Of a stretch of 64,000 nt of DNA, positions 55,106-62,174 are shown piece by piece (within the stretch, counting starts at the first letter, position 1; each line of letters begins with the position of its first letter). This DNA comes from Acidobacteriota bacterium (GTDB lineage: Bacteria; Acidobacteriota; Terriglobia; Acidiferrales; UBA7541): contig JABDEK010000003.1 of assembly GCA_013287135.1 (NCBI GenBank), forward strand, positions 1-64,000, given 5' to 3'. The notes below the pieces were generated by a model that saw only the letters and a program-made list of their open reading frames with translations, was not told the DNA's origin and ran no database searches. A program made the position numbers and the translations under genes.

Positions 55106-55564
55106 ATGAAAGTCCGCTCTAAATTCCTCGTAGGCTCGGCAATTATCGTGGCCACGCTCGTGTCTCTCGCCTACGTCGGGTTCACGCAGAGCAAGACTTA
55201 TTACCACACGATCTCGGAGCTTTCCGGGCTTAGCGGATCGACGCTGCATCAGCGGATGCGCGTCTCAGGCAATGTGCGCAACGGAAGCATTTCACATGTC
55301 CCGGGCGGTGTTGATTTTGTCCTCACCGAGCAAGGCAAGGATCTGGCGGTTAGTTACCTTGGGCGCGACCCTCTTCCCGATACATTCAAAGATGGGGCGC
55401 AGGCTTTAGTCGAAGGCAAGTTGCGGCCGGACAATCGCTTCGTAGCCGAGCAGGTGCAGGCGAAGTGCGCATCGAAGTACGAGGCGACCCCCGGACAAAC
55501 GGCCGGCGGCCCGCAGCCTGCGCAAACGTCGAATGCGCCAGCGGAGCGCTCCGCAGCGAATTAG
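55106..55564 (+). CDS. ccmE: Cytochrome c maturation haem chaperone CcmE, cysteine variant
   Basis: 152 residues from ATG 55106 (AGGAGAAGG upstream). An N-terminal membrane anchor (KFLVGSAIIVATLVSLAYVG) precedes the OB-fold domain: MRVSGNVRNGSI, VDFVLTEQGKDLAVSYLG, DGAQALVEGKL, FVAEQVQAK. CcmE carries haem covalently in the periplasm between CcmC and CcmF. In E. coli the haem His lies in LAKHDENY; here the aligned stretch is QAKCASKY, so Cys121 replaces the His and Tyr125 is kept (CxxxY). This is the form described for the Ccm variant of Desulfovibrio and some archaea. The tail is Pro/Ala/Gln rich. First gene of the operon. Confidence 0.92.
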   Translation: MKVRSKFLVGSAIIVATLVSLAYVGFTQSKTYYHTISELSGLSGSTLHQRMRVSGNVRNGSISHVPGGVDFVLTEQGKDLAVSYLGRDPLPDTFKDGAQALVEGKLRPDNRFVAEQVQAKCASKYEATPGQTAGGPQPAQTSNAPAERSAAN

Positions 55565-55602: not shown

Positions 55603-57672
55603 TTGGACATCTTGGGATCTTTTGCGCTTGTGCTCGCCTTGCTGGCTGCGGTGTATGCGATAGGCGCTGGCATAGCGGGCATCGTGACGCGTAAGACTCT
55701 GCTGACGAAGAGCGCGCGCAATGCTGGATTGGCAGTTTTTATCCTGGTCACTATCGCGGTCGGCTGCCTCGAGTACTATTTCTTTACTGATAATTTTTCC
55801 ATGGCGTATGTAGCGGCGCACAGCAATCGCGCTCTGCCTTTCTATTACAAGTTCGCCGCTCTGTGGGCCGGCCAGGAAGGCTCGCTGCTTTTGTGGACCT
55901 GGCTGCTTTCCACCTACGCGTTTTTCGCTCTTCTCGTCAATCGCAACAAACATCCGGAGCTGATGCCCTACGTAGGCGTCGTGCTGGCAGGCGTCCAGAC
56001 ATTTTTCCTCACGCTAAATAATTTCGTAGCTAGCCCTTTTGCTGTTCTCGCTGGCGCCGATCCATCCGGTGTGATGAGAGTCTCGGCGCTGTCCGATGGC
56101 CACGGTTTGAACCCCTTGCTCCAATATCCGGAGATGGTGATACATCCGCCGATGCTCTACCTTGGCTACACCGGATTCACGGTCCCATTTGCTTTTGCTC
56201 TGGCGGCGCTGCTCGGCAGATATCCCGGAGAGAAATGGATACACATCACGCGGCGCTGGACCATGATCGCGTGGTGCTTCCAAAGCGTGGGGATTTTGCT
56301 CGGCGCGCATTGGGCATACGCGGTGCTCGGTTGGGGCGGATATTGGGCGTGGGATCCGGTCGAAAACGCCTCGCTGCTACCCTGGATCACCGGAACAGCG
56401 TTTTTGCATTCCGTGATGATGCAGGAAAAGCGCGGCATGATGAAGGTGTGGAATATTTGGCTGGTCTTCACCACCTTCATGCTGTGCATTCTCGGGACGC
56501 TACTGACGCGCTCGGGCTTGGTCAGTTCGGTGCATGCCTTCGCGCAATCTTCGATAGGGAACTGGTTCGTCGGATTTCTTGTCTTGGTGTTCGTCGTATG
56601 TTTCGCGTCCTACTGGAAGAATCGCGATTACCTGCGAAGCGACAATCAACTGGACTCGCTGGTGTCCCGCGAATCGAGCTTCCTCTTTAACAATTTGATT
56701 TTGCTCGCGGCCTGTTTTGCAGTCCTGTGGGGAACGCTCTTCCCGGTGCTTTCCGAATGGGTAGTGGGAAGCAAAATCAGCGTGGGCCCTCCGTTTTTCA
56801 ACAAGGTGAATATACCCATCGCGTTGTTTCTCCTATTGCTCACAGGTGTCGGGCCGTTGCTTGCGTGGCGAAAGACTTCTTTTGACGCTCTAAAACGAAA
56901 CTTTGCGTGGCCTCTGCTCGGCGGTGTCGTCGCGGGAGCAGTTGCGTTGATTTTCGGTTTTCGAGATATCTACTCGCTCATTTGCCTGATTCTCGGTGTG
57001 TTTGTAACGTTGACCATTCTTTCGGAATTTTTCCGCGGTGCACGAGTAATTGCTGCGCGAGACGGCTCAAACCTGATTTCTGCCGTGGGCGAATTGACTA
57101 TGCGCAATACTCGCCGCTACGGCGGGTACGTGGTGCATTTTGGAATGGTGCTAATCTTCATTGGTATCGCGGGCGTGCCGTTCAATAAAGACGTCCAGAA
57201 GGAAATGGCGATCGGGCAATCGCTGAATATCGGGCCCTACTCGATTCTTTGCCAGAATTTCGACCGCGTCGCGAATGCAAATTACGATTCCGAGCGCGCT
57301 ACGCTGGAAGTGTTCCGCAACGGCAAGTCGGAAATGATGCTCTACCCGGAGCGACGGTTTTTTCTCTCCAGCCAGGTGACGGAAACGATGGTTGCGGTTC
57401 AAAGCTCGCCGCTGCGCGATCTTTATATTGTGTATGCGGGACGCAGTCCTGAAAATGGCCAGCCGGTGATCCACGCGTATCTCAATCCACTTGTAAAATG
57501 GATTTGGTTTGGCGGCATTGTGGTGGTTCTCGGCACAGGACTCGCCATGTTGCCGAATCGGCGGACGGTTTTAGTTCTCCGACCGGTAGCTGAACAGTCC
57601 TGGGGCGAGCGAGTTTCGACGACTACGGCGCCGATCGGTGCCATTGCTCAAAGAGGTGACGCTAGTGATTAG
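55603..57672 (+). CDS. ccmF: Cytochrome c haem lyase subunit CcmF
   Basis: 689 residues, about 14-15 membrane helices. The haem-handling WWD segment reads WGGYWAWDPVENASLLPW, flanked by HPPMLYLGYTGFTVPFAFAL and the His-containing GTAFLHSVMMQEKRG. Near the C-terminus, NTRRYGGYVVHFGMVLIFIG is typical. CcmF takes haem from CcmE and attaches it to apocytochrome CxxCH motifs. TTG 55603 is the start that gives the normal N-terminus. It lies 38 bases after ccmE; the ccmH frame overlaps its end. Confidence 0.94.
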   Translation: MDILGSFALVLALLAAVYAIGAGIAGIVTRKTLLTKSARNAGLAVFILVTIAVGCLEYYFFTDNFSMAYVAAHSNRALPFYYKFAALWAGQEGSLLLWTWLLSTYAFFALLVNRNKHPELMPYVGVVLAGVQTFFLTLNNFVASPFAVLAGADPSGVMRVSALSDGHGLNPLLQYPEMVIHPPMLYLGYTGFTVPFAFALAALLGRYPGEKWIHITRRWTMIAWCFQSVGILLGAHWAYAVLGWGGYWAWDPVENASLLPWITGTAFLHSVMMQEKRGMMKVWNIWLVFTTFMLCILGTLLTRSGLVSSVHAFAQSSIGNWFVGFLVLVFVVCFASYWKNRDYLRSDNQLDSLVSRESSFLFNNLILLAACFAVLWGTLFPVLSEWVVGSKISVGPPFFNKVNIPIALFLLLLTGVGPLLAWRKTSFDALKRNFAWPLLGGVVAGAVALIFGFRDIYSLICLILGVFVTLTILSEFFRGARVIAARDGSNLISAVGELTMRNTRRYGGYVVHFGMVLIFIGIAGVPFNKDVQKEMAIGQSLNIGPYSILCQNFDRVANANYDSERATLEVFRNGKSEMMLYPERRFFLSSQVTETMVAVQSSPLRDLYIVYAGRSPENGQPVIHAYLNPLVKWIWFGGIVVVLGTGLAMLPNRRTVLVLRPVAEQSWGERVSTTTAPIGAIAQRGDASD

Positions 57673-58201
57673 GCATCGTCGAGCAAAGTTTCGTTCCTCG
57701 CGTGTGAAGGCGCTGCTCATCGCGTTCGCCGCTCTCTTAGTCGCGATGCAGGCGCCGTTTACGTCTCCGTTGCGCGCCCAACAGACCGAGCGCGGAAAAG
57801 AGCTCGGCAGGCGCGTGAAATGCATGTGCGGGGGGTGCCAGGATTCCGCCACGGGGTGCAATCACACGGGCGGCTCATTTTCGGGTCCGTGTGACACCGC
57901 CAAGGGAATGCAAAAAGAAATCAACGAGCGCGTGAACCGCAATGAATCCGACGACCTCACCTTGCAGGCTTTCGTGCAGGAATATGGGCCGACCGTGCTG
58001 ATCGTCCCGCCTGCCAGAGGATTCAACCTGGCAGCTTGGGTTACTCCCGTTGTTATGCCGATCTTAGCGCTGATTCTCGTCTGGTTTGTGGTGCGCCGCT
58101 GGCGGAATAGGGCCACGCTCGCGACAGCGTCCGGGCCGGGCGTTTCCTCCGAATTTCTCTCCCGCGCTCAGCGCGAATCCGGAAAAGAATACGATGAGTA
58201 A
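57665..58201 (+). CDS. ccmH: CcmH-like protein with five-cysteine cluster
   Basis: 178 residues from GTG 57665, which has AGAGG upstream; earlier in-frame GTGs at 57638 and 57656 are possible. A signal sequence (VKALLIAFAALLVAM) is followed by the CcmH-type domain and a C-terminal membrane helix (WVTPVVMPILALILVWFVVRRW). YGPTVLIVPPARG matches the conserved CcmH YGxxVLxxPP. Instead of LRCxxCQN the motif is VKCMCGGCQDSATGCNH...GPC, with Cys53, 55, 58, 65 and 76. CcmH reduces apocytochrome disulfides and presents the apoprotein to CcmF. The gene overlaps ccmF by eight bases and the next by eight. Confidence 0.85.
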   Translation: MIRHRRAKFRSSRVKALLIAFAALLVAMQAPFTSPLRAQQTERGKELGRRVKCMCGGCQDSATGCNHTGGSFSGPCDTAKGMQKEINERVNRNESDDLTLQAFVQEYGPTVLIVPPARGFNLAAWVTPVVMPILALILVWFVVRRWRNRATLATASGPGVSSEFLSRAQRESGKEYDE

Positions 58202-58523
58202 CGTCGATATCGCCGTGGCCTGCGCGTTACTCGCCGCTGCTACCGTCGTTTTTATTTTCATGGTGCAGCCGGAAGCTTCCGATTCAGCGCCGCATCGCAC
58301 GAAGCTCGACCAGTTGCTAGAGCGTCGCGACGCGATTTACGAGAACCTGCGTGACCTGCGATTTGAATACCGGGCTGGAAAATTTTCGGAAGCGGATTAC
58401 GAAGAAACCAAGCGATTGCTCGAAGTGGAAGCGGCTCGCGTACTGGCGGACATGGATCAATTGACCGGTGGAACTCCTACTCCGGCCACTCGTCAAGCGG
58501 CAACCTCAAAGGTGCAGCGTTAA
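58194..58523 (+). CDS. CcmI-like protein reduced to the N-terminal module
   Basis: 109 residues from ATG 58194. An N-terminal helix (IAVACALLAAATVVFIFMV) is followed by a charged coiled segment with LRDLRFEYRAGKFSEADYE, the layout of the CcmI N-terminal domain (a membrane helix then LxxLExDxxAGxLSxxEYE). Full CcmI continues with TPR repeats that hold apocytochrome c; those are absent. It overlaps ccmH upstream, and its stop overlaps the next start (TAATG), so it belongs to the ccm operon. Start at 58194 is the only one that fits the gene packing. Confidence 0.72.
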   Translation: MSNVDIAVACALLAAATVVFIFMVQPEASDSAPHRTKLDQLLERRDAIYENLRDLRFEYRAGKFSEADYEETKRLLEVEAARVLADMDQLTGGTPTPATRQAATSKVQR

Positions 58524-59881
58524 TGATTCTTCGGCTTTTTAAGTTTGAAATCGTACGCGTCGTTACGATTGTTCTGTTGGGACACGCAATGTCCGCCGCC
58601 TTAGCTCCCCTCGCTGCGGCCGGTTCGGTCTCGGGCACCGTAACAAACGGCACCACTGGCAAGCCCGCCTCTGGCGCAGAAGTAATTCTGATTCAATTGC
58701 AAGGTGGAATGCAGCCGGTAGCTAATACCAAAACAGATTCCACCGGACATTACTCGTTCGAAAATGCCGGCCTAGGCGCCGGGGCGCCAATGCTCATACG
58801 CGTAGTTTACCGCGGCGTGAATTATCACGAGCCAGTCCCACCGGGAAAGACTACCGCTGACGTGCAAGTTTTTGAACCCACGGACAGGCCCACCGCATTC
58901 GCGGTCAGCAATCATGCGATCATTGTGCAACCAAACGGAGCCGATCTGATGGTCGGCGAAGAATACGCCATCGAGAACAAGACACAGCCGCCCGTCGCGT
59001 TCTATCGCGCCGATGGATCGTTCAATTTTTCGATCCCCGACGGCGCAGACTTCAATCAAGCCTCTGCGTGGGGTTCAGCGGGAATGCCGGTGGTTCAAGG
59101 CACCATCGAAAAGGGCAAAAATAAGTGGGCTATCGCTTTTCCGTTTCGTCCCGGCGAAAGCGGCGTGCGCATCTCTTACAAAGTGCCCTATCCCGGCAAC
59201 CAGTTAACGCTGAAGAACACGTCCCCCTACGCGACTGACCGGTTAATTATCGCCGCGCCTCCAACCGTCCAGATCTCTGGTGACGGAATTACTCCCGCAG
59301 GTCAAGACCAGGGGTTTAATGTTTACACTAGAACTGCGGTCGCTGCAGACACCCCCCTAGCGATAAAAGTTTCCGGCACGGCGCCAATGCCTTCTGCGAG
59401 TCAGGGAACAAATGAAGGCGGCGCCTCGAGCCCGCCCGATGGATCCGCCAATGCGTCGGTGAATTCGCGCCTAGAAGCTTCCGGCGCTGAAGCGACGACG
59501 GCCGCGGCGACCACCGTGCCGGCCCGTCTCGACAGCCTGAAATGGATTCTTGTCGGTGGCTTCGCCTCCATTTTCGCGCTCGGCTTCGTTTATTTGTGGC
59601 GACGGCCGCAAATAATCATGCCAACCAACGGCGATGCTCCGGCCGTTGCAGCCGTGTCAGCGAAGGCTGCATTCCCCGCGGCTTCAAAACACTCGCCCGC
59701 GCCCGTTGTGACTGAAACCGTCGCCCAGGTAAATCGCGAAGTTCGAGGAAGCCTCGACGAATTAAAGGACAGCCTTTTCCGCCTGGAATTGCGCCGCCAA
59801 GCCGGGACCATCACGGAGACCGACTACGAGCGCGAGCGACAACAGTTGGAAAAAGTACTACGCGATTTAGTGAGAGGCTAA
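58523..59881 (+). CDS. Carboxypeptidase-regulatory-like periplasmic protein fused to a CcmI-like tail
   Basis: 452 residues. A signal peptide (ends [10 protein letters not shown]) leads into a CarboxypepD-regulatory-like beta domain at about 33-115 ([35 protein letters not shown]). A second beta-rich region spans about 120-290, followed by an Ala/Ser/Thr-rich linker, a single membrane helix ([19 protein letters not shown], about 338-357) and a cytoplasmic tail ending [26 protein letters not shown]. That tail has the same pattern as the CcmI-like protein just upstream (EYRAGKFSEADYE). It sits between the ccmI-like gene and ccmA, so a role in cytochrome c maturation or apoprotein handling is likely but unproven. 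I know of no named family. Confidence 0.7.
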
Positions 59882-59891
59882 GCGGAACGCC

Positions 59892-60635
59892 TTGCCCGCA
59901 ACCCGCTCCACTTCTCGTTCTGGCGTCTCCTTTCTTGGAGTTTCCTTCGCCGGCATTGAAAAACGTTTTGGATCTTTCTTTGCGTTGCGCGGAATCTCGC
60001 TTCAAATCCATTCCGGCGAATTTGTTGCGCTGTTAGGTCCAAACGGGGCGGGGAAAACCACCCTCTTGCGCACGGCCGCTCTGCTCGCAGCACCCACGCG
60101 CGGCAAAGTTCAATACACGAATAGTGAGCATCCCGGTCAACCACTGGATCCCTCGGCAACAAAAAGACAGCTTGGCATGGTGGGCCACACCACGTTGCTT
60201 TACGACGAATTGACCGCGGCCGAAAATCTCACACTATTCGGTCAACTTTACGGTCTCGATGATGTTTCTGCTCGTGTCACAAACGCACTGGGGACCTGTG
60301 GGCTGGGTTCCCGCGCCGTGAGTCTGGTGCGCACATTTTCCCGTGGTATGCGCCAACGCTTGGCAATTGCCCGCGCGCTGTTACACGGCCCGCGGGTTCT
60401 TTTGCTAGATGAGCCGGCCGCCGGACTGGATCGCGCGGGTCTTACATGGTTCAGCGCTACACTCGAGAATCTGCGCAAAGACGGTTGCACCGTAATAATG
60501 AGCACGCACGCCCGAAACGAATCGCTAGAATTGGCCACACGCGCGATAGTGTTGGCGGCCGGCACCGTACAGCACGACAGCGGGGAGCAAGGTGATCCAC
60601 GCCCATTACTTGCCGCGCTACGAGCGGACGCCTGA
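59892..60635 (+). CDS. ccmA: Haem exporter ATP-binding protein CcmA
   Basis: 247 residues. Walker [21 protein letters not shown], the signature [19 protein letters not shown], and Walker [13 protein letters not shown] are present, followed by the H-loop in TVIMSTHA. CcmA2 with CcmB forms the ABC module that uses ATP to release holo-CcmE from CcmC. TTG 59892 is used as start; a slightly later start is possible since conserved sequence begins near [11 protein letters not shown]. ccmB begins directly after the stop. Confidence 0.93.
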
Positions 60636-61310
60636 ATGAGTACGGCCCGCTCCTGCGCGATTCTCCTAGGCAAAGAACTTCGTCTGGAGTTCCGCACGCG
60701 CGAGCTTTTGAGCGCCACAATCGTCTTCGCCTTGGTTATCGTGGTGCTCTTCAGTTTCGCCTTCGATCCTACCGCGGCCGAATCCCGGCGTTACGGTCCC
60801 GGCCTTCTTTGGATCTCGTTTTTGTTCGCCGGCTCGCTCATGCTGAACCCGTCCTTCGCCAGAGAACGCCTCAACGACACCATGGACGCCCTGCGCCTGG
60901 CTCCGATTTCGCCTTTCGCCATTCTCTCCGCAAAAATGCTCGCGAATCTTATCTTTATGTCGTTGGTAGAAGTCGTGCTCGTTCCCGTTTTTTCGGTCTT
61001 GTACAACGTATCGCTGGCCGGCGTGGTCCTCCCGCTAATCCTCGTTTTGATCCTCGGCACCATCGGCCTAACCGTCACTGGAACCGTTTTCTCCGCAATT
61101 TCGTCACATGCGCGTCTTCGTGAATTGCTCTTGCCGCTTCTTTTGCTGCCGATCCTGACTCCCTTGCTCATCGCGGCCGTCGAAGCCACTGCCTCTTTGT
61201 TCGTGGAACAGCCCGAGCTCGACCGCACTTGGGTCGCGTTGCTTGCCGGATTTGATATCGTATTCCTGACGGCGTCCTGGCTTCTGTGCGATTATTTAAT
61301 TGAGGAATAA
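60636..61310 (+). CDS. ccmB: Haem exporter permease CcmB
   Basis: 224 residues with six membrane helices. The family N-terminus (LLGKELRLEFRTRELLSATIVFALVIVVLF), the conserved GPGLLWISFLFAGSLMLNPSFARERLNDTMDALRLAP region and the VLPLLLLPILTPLLIA helix are seen. Membrane partner of CcmA. ATG 60636 follows the ccmA TGA without a gap. Confidence 0.93.
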   Translation: MSTARSCAILLGKELRLEFRTRELLSATIVFALVIVVLFSFAFDPTAAESRRYGPGLLWISFLFAGSLMLNPSFARERLNDTMDALRLAPISPFAILSAKMLANLIFMSLVEVVLVPVFSVLYNVSLAGVVLPLILVLILGTIGLTVTGTVFSAISSHARLRELLLPLLLLPILTPLLIAAVEATASLFVEQPELDRTWVALLAGFDIVFLTASWLLCDYLIEE

Positions 61311-61323
61311 TGAGACGCATTCG

Positions 61324-62037
61324 ATGAAGGCTCGCTACGCAGCCACAATCCTCGTCGCCGGCCTGATTTTCTTCGCTGGATATGCGGCGCTTTTCATCGC
61401 GCCCGATGAAAGAACCATGCACCTCATCCAACGCATCTTTTATTTCCACGTTCCAAGTTGGATGGCGATGTTCACTGCGCTCTCCGTTGCTTTTATCGCG
61501 AACATCGCGTATTTAGCTACGCACAAACCTACGTGGGACTCCTGGGGCGTCTCGGCCGTAGAAGTTGGCGTAGTCTGCTGCACCATCGGCCTGGCCACTG
61601 GCCCGTTGTGGGCCAGGCCGGTGTGGGGAATATGGTGGACCTGGGATGCGCGCCTGACCACCACCTTCATCCTCTGGCTACTTTATATTGCCTATTTATT
61701 GTTGCGCGGCCTGCTGGATGATCCTGAAAAAAAGGCGACTCTTTCAGCCGTGTTCGGGATTTTCGCGTTCCTCGATGCGCCCCTGGTTTACGTTTCCAAT
61801 CGTTTATGGCGCACGCAACACCCGCAGCCAGTGATTCTGGGAGGTTCGGGATCCGGTCTGGACCCCGTGATTGGGAAAGTTCTTCTGCTTTGCGTCATCG
61901 CCGTCATGGGAGTGATGATTCTTGTCCTGATCGACCGTTACAGGCTCGAGCAGTTACGCCGGGAGTTTGAAGAACTTCGCATGGAGTATGAAACCCTGAA
62001 TCTTGAGCCGTCATCTATTGGTAAGGAGAGGCTATGA
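61324..62037 (+). CDS. ccmC: Haem transport protein CcmC
   Basis: 237 residues from ATG 61324 (an in-frame TTG at 61300 would overlap ccmB). Six membrane helices; haem ligand His in FYFHVPSWMAMF and, later, the periplasmic WWD segment WGIWWTWDARLTTTFILW, and the second His near RTQHPQPVILGG. It loads haem on CcmE. The C-terminal helix is followed by a cytoplasmic coiled segment (RLEQLRREFEELRMEYETLN) longer than usual. Overlaps the ccmD start by four bases (ATGA). Confidence 0.93.
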   Translation: MKARYAATILVAGLIFFAGYAALFIAPDERTMHLIQRIFYFHVPSWMAMFTALSVAFIANIAYLATHKPTWDSWGVSAVEVGVVCCTIGLATGPLWARPVWGIWWTWDARLTTTFILWLLYIAYLLLRGLLDDPEKKATLSAVFGIFAFLDAPLVYVSNRLWRTQHPQPVILGGSGSGLDPVIGKVLLLCVIAVMGVMILVLIDRYRLEQLRREFEELRMEYETLNLEPSSIGKERL

Positions 62038-62174
62038 AGAATTTCGAAAATTTGTTTGCTGCTTGGATGGTCGTGTGGGCCGTTTTTTTCGTGTATGAAG
62101 TATCTATAGCCCGGCGATTGGCGCGACTGCGTCAGGATATCGAAAGTTTGAAACAGCAAATGCGTGGGAGGTAG
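62034..62174 (+). CDS. ccmD: CcmD-like micro-protein
   Basis: 46 residues, too short for most gene finders. ATG 62034 overlaps the ccmC stop as ATGA, and AAGGAGAGG lies just upstream. The protein has one membrane helix (FAAWMVVWAVFFVYEVSIA) followed by a basic, heptad-like cytoplasmic helix (RRLARLRQDIESLKQQM), exactly the CcmD layout. CcmD stabilises the CcmABC-CcmE complex and its position after ccmC is standard. Confidence 0.85.
   Translation: MKNFENLFAAWMVVWAVFFVYEVSIARRLARLRQDIESLKQQMRGR

Follow-up and report, generated by a model that had tools for sequence, protein, structure and literature searches.

A five-cysteine CcmH variant beside a System I*-type CcmE in a soil acidobacterium

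The stretch of DNA analysed here (64,000 nucleotides, hereafter the window) comes from a soil acidobacterium and encodes, within a cytochrome c maturation (ccm) operon, a haem chaperone CcmE in which a cysteine occupies the place of the haem-binding histidine, together with a protein resembling CcmH. A preliminary description read this combination as a "mixture of two types" of Ccm system, the standard System I and the variant System I*. The question raised by the locus is whether it represents such a mixture, or a known variant system in which some other component is distinctive. The evidence favours the latter: the organism most likely assembles its cytochromes c by a known variant system with a Cys-type haem carrier, and what stands out is not the Cys-CcmE, the usual form in the phylum, but a five-Cys CcmH (here designated CcmH*), which is worth testing as a partner variant.

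The cysteine of CcmE

55106..55564, + strand: ccmE, haem chaperone (Pfam CcmE, PF03100; 80.2 bits, E = 1.5e-22)
55466..55468, + strand: TGC codon of Cys121, predicted covalent haem ligand, corresponding to His130 of E. coli CcmE when aligned with 1SR3

The CcmE product comprises 152 amino acids, with the motif QAKCASKY close to its C-terminus, and its match to PF03100 covers positions 2-98 of the 99 in the domain at a score far above the curated cut-off of 24.6 bits. In alignment with E. coli CcmE (structures 1SR3 and 8CE8), AKHDENY falls on AKCASKY, with Cys121 opposite His130, the haem ligand of the E. coli protein (PMC9084895), and no nearby histidine lies at the haem position. The replacement of histidine by cysteine claimed in the preliminary description is confirmed by the translation, by this alignment and by relatives of the protein; its statement that the two CcmE proteins align without gaps holds for the last ~35 residues, the whole alignment having two 2-residue gaps. 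KCASKY recurs in three relatives from other acidobacterial MAGs, whose CcmE are 86%, 81% and 74% identical to that of the window and whose genes are separated from it by 50-56 synonymous and 17-26 nonsynonymous codon changes. The nearest named relatives are acidobacterial MAGs, part of them labelled Terriglobia or Candidatus Acidiferrales, and among 90 CcmE sequences from acidobacteria, 79 have cysteine at the haem-binding position. Cys121 is a genuine conserved feature of this protein.

By this residue the window CcmE lacks the histidine that marks standard System I and possesses the cysteine in its place that marks System I*; its KCASKY bears out the earlier assignment of the CxxxY form to System I*. 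The source genome, a MAG of 4.4 Mb estimated to be 79% complete, yielded a single CcmE and a single CcmH match, and a second, His-type CcmE was sought elsewhere in this partial genome and not detected.

The operon and its CcmH variant

55603..57672, + strand: ccmF, cytochrome c synthase (Pfam CcmF_C and Cytochrom_C_asm; alignment with E. coli CcmF)
57665..58201, + strand: ccmH variant, CcmH* (Pfam CcmH, PF03918, 61 bits against 25; GTG start overlapping the ccmF stop)
58194..58523, + strand: small membrane protein with a coiled coil, CcmI-N-like, 109 aa (weak TIGR03142 CcmI match, 15 bits, below cut-off)
58523..59881, + strand: unnamed operon protein with beta-rich domains, one TM segment and a cytoplasmic coil (CarboxypepD_reg; AF2 pLDDT 84)
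59892..60635, + strand: ccmA, ABC ATPase (TIGR01189, 125 bits, slightly under cut-off; adjoins ccmB)
60636..61310, + strand: ccmB (Pfam CcmB, 123 bits)
61300..62037, + strand: ccmC (Pfam Cytochrom_C_asm; TIGR01191, 108 bits)
62034..62174, + strand: ccmD-like small membrane protein, 46 aa (TIGR04391 CcmD_alt_fam, E = 3.9e-5, 23.5 bits against a cut-off of 24)

The genes lie on the + strand in the order ccmE-F-H-CcmI-like-beta protein-A-B-C-D and are followed by genes for a ferrochelatase and a Rieske protein. No CcmG was found among the genes tested from ccmE to the Rieske gene, and a scan of the operon for promoters and terminators returned sites no more numerous than in shuffled sequence. Genome-wide there are 13 cytochrome c domain matches, potential substrates of the system, and a single DsbD/CcdA-type protein. 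CcmF retains, in alignment with its E. coli counterpart, the conserved Trp and the four haem-ligand histidines (182, 270, 312 and 513, equivalent to E. coli 173, 261, 303 and 491), the latter being conserved in both Cys-type and His-type loci.

The preliminary description was correct in noting a coexisting CcmH-like protein, since a CcmH homologue is encoded in the same operon; the five-Cys motif of that protein, which differs from the standard LRCxxCQ, went unmentioned. LRCxxCQ is absent from this CcmH, which has VKCMCGGCQDSATGCNH instead. The cysteines (Cys53, 55, 58, 65 and 76) form the motif CMCGGC-x6-C-x10-C, conforming to a general pattern C-x-C-(G)-x-C-x6-C-xn-C, as opposed to the two cysteines of LRCxxCQ CcmH. 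Across an alignment of 40 sequences, Cys53, Cys55 and Cys76 are invariant, while conservation of Cys58 and Cys65 reaches 90% or more. When distinct motifs were counted by pattern, 118 had all five cysteines and eight were scored otherwise; in six of the eight the pattern had hit unrelated upstream residues, leaving two real exceptions (L077 and L138). We found no description of a five-Cys CcmH in the open literature.

Despite its altered motif, CcmH* is a true CcmH homologue with the fold of the CcmH periplasmic domain. Its profile matches CcmH structures from E. coli (2KW0, 4.5e-8) and P. aeruginosa (2HL7, 2.5e-7) in the PDB, and aligns with LRCxxCQ CcmH in hhalign at a probability of 99.3 (E = 2.3e-20). 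An AF2 model (pLDDT 83) has 2HL7 as its best Foldseek match (probability 0.99, TM 0.59 by target length, E = 0.11), with 2KW0 also among the best fold matches (probability 0.98). The first cysteine and the cysteine before Q/N align with both redox cysteines of LRCxxC, the placement of cysteines beyond the first being less certain owing to insertions. CcmH* can accordingly be regarded as a variant for which no description was found in the open literature, standing beside a System I* CcmE of known kind. Natural fusions, in which ccmF and a five-Cys ccmH are joined in one frame of ~770-980 codons, occur at 20 loci in seven families (L125, L126, L127, L135, L139 and L145 among them) and support the working of CcmH* at CcmF.

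The two genes that follow ccmH* are also recurrent. The small CcmI-N-like protein occupies the same position in other Cys-type loci, and in 65 of 141 loci (for example L069, L126, L130, L146 and L211) it bears a C-terminal zinc ribbon (CxxC...CxxC); the idea that this ribbon stands in for a lost CcmH was rejected, as it is equally common with CcmH (50/110 loci) and without it (15/31). The protein encoded at 58523..59881, kept at this position in most Terriglobia-type loci, combines TTR/CarboxypepD-like beta domains, one TM segment and a CcmI-like coil; Foldseek returned generic beta-domain matches only, and the protein is possibly an apocytochrome holder that replaces the TPR part of CcmI. In loci L063-L073, which belong to the window's class (family f2), the operon is split, with ccmE-A-B-C apart from ccmF-H*-CcmI-like-beta protein.

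Distribution and ancestry of CcmE and CcmH types

Searches for CcmE and CcmH in 247 genomes of Acidobacteriota, at least 85% complete except for the window's own, gave 159 positives for CcmE and 125 for CcmH; DNA around many of the matches, and 80 related loci with record titles, were also taken in. The CcmE residue was typed in 130 genomes, as Cys in 112 and His in 18, and CcmH was present in 85 of the former and in all 18 of the latter. This is the survey that the preliminary description had proposed, and its outcome does not support the notion of a mixture: Acidobacteriota commonly possess both Cys-CcmE and a CcmH, and the combination, which had already appeared in the literature (PMC3601427), is neither unusual nor new as such. 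The 27 of 112 Cys-CcmE genomes in which CcmH went undetected imply that CcmH* is not generally needed for a Cys-CcmE system.

The residue of CcmE and the kind of CcmH go together. Cys-CcmE loci carry a multi-Cys CcmH in 101 instances, LRCxxCQ in none and an other or unclear type in three, with CcmH undetected in 38, some of which lie near contig ends; His-CcmE loci carry LRCxxCQ in 11 of 11 and a multi-Cys form in none. Counted by genome, the CcmH proteins fetched for Cys-CcmE genomes are of the CxC type in 61 and of a stand-alone APCC type in 11, again with no LRCxxCQ, the motif present in all 18 His-CcmE genomes. The five-Cys motif was found in this survey beside Cys-CcmE only. Gene order differs in parallel, being mostly E-F-H-x-x-A-B-C in the Cys type and A-B-(C)-E-F-(G)-H in the His type. 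E. coli and Methylophaga likewise pair His-CcmE with LRCxxCQ CcmH. A record labelled Krumholzibacteriota gave access to a second phylum, in which each of the ten CcmE has KCASKY and CcmH shows the five-Cys motif in some members and SP(Y/F)CPG in others.

Several further observations emerged from these loci. The APCC(W) form is a third CcmH type; it stands alone, at a distance from the ccm operon, and belongs to lineages with no CcmH in that operon (L156, L157, L301, L302 and L307-L309), and the SP(Y/F)CPG-x-x-L-x-x-C type of the second phylum also lies outside the operon (L333, L334 and L337). A record titled Acidimicrobiia bacterium (VFZK01000133.1; loci L210 and L266, genome G248) contains an acidobacterial-type ccm operon; its genome drew the same set of genomes as the window's phylum, it was not counted as an extra phylum, and it is probably a mislabelled MAG.

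The pairing may mean that two operon types were inherited, and not that CcmE and CcmH co-evolved repeatedly. In the CcmF tree, the window CcmF groups among Cys-type loci. A larger tree requires two Cys/His label changes; with the two most divergent rows removed, all His types fall on one side of a single branch (support 78, not starred). One deep split between the two types is thus compatible with the tree, and shared ancestry may account for the pairing. Independent repeats of the pairing were considered and set aside, one split being sufficient once the two divergent rows are omitted, and the pairing does not in itself demonstrate co-evolution. These comparisons draw mainly on Acidobacteriota with few loci from other phyla, and do not extend to Chloroflexota or to Desulfobacterota, the group that has supplied experimental tests of System I*.

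Proposed haem delivery and relation to known Ccm systems

We consider the most probable reading (roughly 0.82) to be a System I*-type CcmE that carries haem by a thioether and works with the CcmF synthase and the thiol-rich CcmH*. Under this scheme CcmABC(D) would load haem onto CcmE, which would carry it on Cys121, probably by a thioether link to a haem vinyl, Tyr125 being a likely ligand of the iron; holo-CcmE would hand the haem to CcmF for attachment to apocytochromes, and CcmH* would most likely keep the CXXCH thiols reduced and bring the apocytochrome to the active site of CcmF. Cysteine at this position binds haem covalently in the CcmE of D. desulfuricans (PMC3601427) and is needed in that of M. 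acetivorans (PMC9084895); we came across no biochemical study of a CcmE from an acidobacterium. Standard CcmH acts as a thiol reductant and aids acceptor binding, its CxxC lying near the CcmF active site in a predicted complex (PMC10663686). The five cysteines of CcmH* may play the same role as standard CcmH, bind metal, or take part in haem release from the thioether.

The alternative that retains most weight, at about one chance in three, is that these cysteines form a structural metal site (for zinc, for example) with no thiol chemistry, the pairing with Cys-CcmE being a matter of shared operon ancestry. CxC-G-C...C patterns do resemble metal sites, and the CcmF tree is compatible with a single Cys/His split; the correspondence of two of the cysteines with the redox pair of LRCxxC argues the other way, although a metal site would still be compatible with it. 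We think it rather doubtful that CcmH* and Cys-CcmE constitute a functional pair, in which the CcmH* thiols, placed at the active site of CcmF, would help in breaking or exchanging the thioether or keep the CcmE cysteine reduced; if true, this would represent a third Ccm mode in addition to System I in its standard form and System I* without CcmH. Somewhat less credible again is that Cys121 and Tyr125 hold haem non-covalently, in the way reported for the CcmE of D. vulgaris, which uses this cysteine (cited in PMC3884852), against which stands the covalent attachment in D. desulfuricans (PMC3601427). A hybrid, arising by gain of Cys-CcmE through gene transfer or mutation in a standard CcmH-containing operon, would explain the CcmH homologue in the operon and accords with a founding description of System I* that, to judge from its title, stressed the lack of CcmH (Allen 2006, via PMC3601427); it is nevertheless very improbable, as the same operon and CcmH variant recur throughout the phylum and also in another one, Cys-CcmE was never found with LRCxxCQ CcmH, and the window CcmF sits among Cys-type loci. 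A sequencing or assembly error at the Cys121 codon, conceivable in a draft MAG, has a negligible chance because relatives in independent genomes share the same cysteine within KCASKY.

How the stable haem-Cys thioether on CcmE is broken was described as an open question in a 2011 review (PMC3601427). Within one phylum, loci with Cys-CcmE and five-Cys CcmH, with Cys-CcmE and no CcmH, and with His-CcmE and LRCxxCQ CcmH provide a natural comparison set. Acidobacteriota are a large phylum with mostly Cys-CcmE, usually accompanied by a thiol-rich CcmH at the place of haem hand-over, and these data qualify the view, repeated for archaea in 2022, that a CxxxY CcmE accompanies CcmH loss (PMC9084895).

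Operation without CcmH, attributed to System I* in the preliminary description, is true to the original 2006 account, but it is not a defining trait: the 2011 review counts CcmH in about one-third of bacteria with Cys-CcmE and does not consider its absence characteristic (PMC3601427), and CcmH is present here. In Desulfovibrio and archaea, the CcmE of System I* (a CxxxY protein) resembles that of the window in family, in Cys for His and in the Tyr at +4; CPSKY is the prevailing motif there, against KCASKY in the window, and Desulfovibrio and nearly all archaea lack CcmH, of which the window encodes a homologue. In Desulfovibrio CcmG is missing as well. Bacterial System I* with CcmH (PMC3601427) shares the occurrence of both proteins in one genome; we found no description of its Cys motif, whereas the window CcmH has five conserved cysteines and not LRCxxCQ. 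The E. coli System I (CcmABCDEFGH) has in common with the window the CcmA, B, C, E and F families, the CcmF haem-ligand histidines and a CcmH homologue, from which the window departs in its Cys-CcmE, its gene order, the lack of LRCxxCQ and the lack of CcmG between ccmF and ccmH. System I*-type ccm operons are also borne on two plasmids in Bacillota, from Metabacillus and Cytobacillus (L268 and L312); they have the window's order, ccmE-F-H-small protein-second protein-A-B-C, with a Cys-CcmE (KCPSKY), but their CcmH carries PPGCTDSMTADYC in place of the five-Cys motif and a TlpA-like protein then follows.
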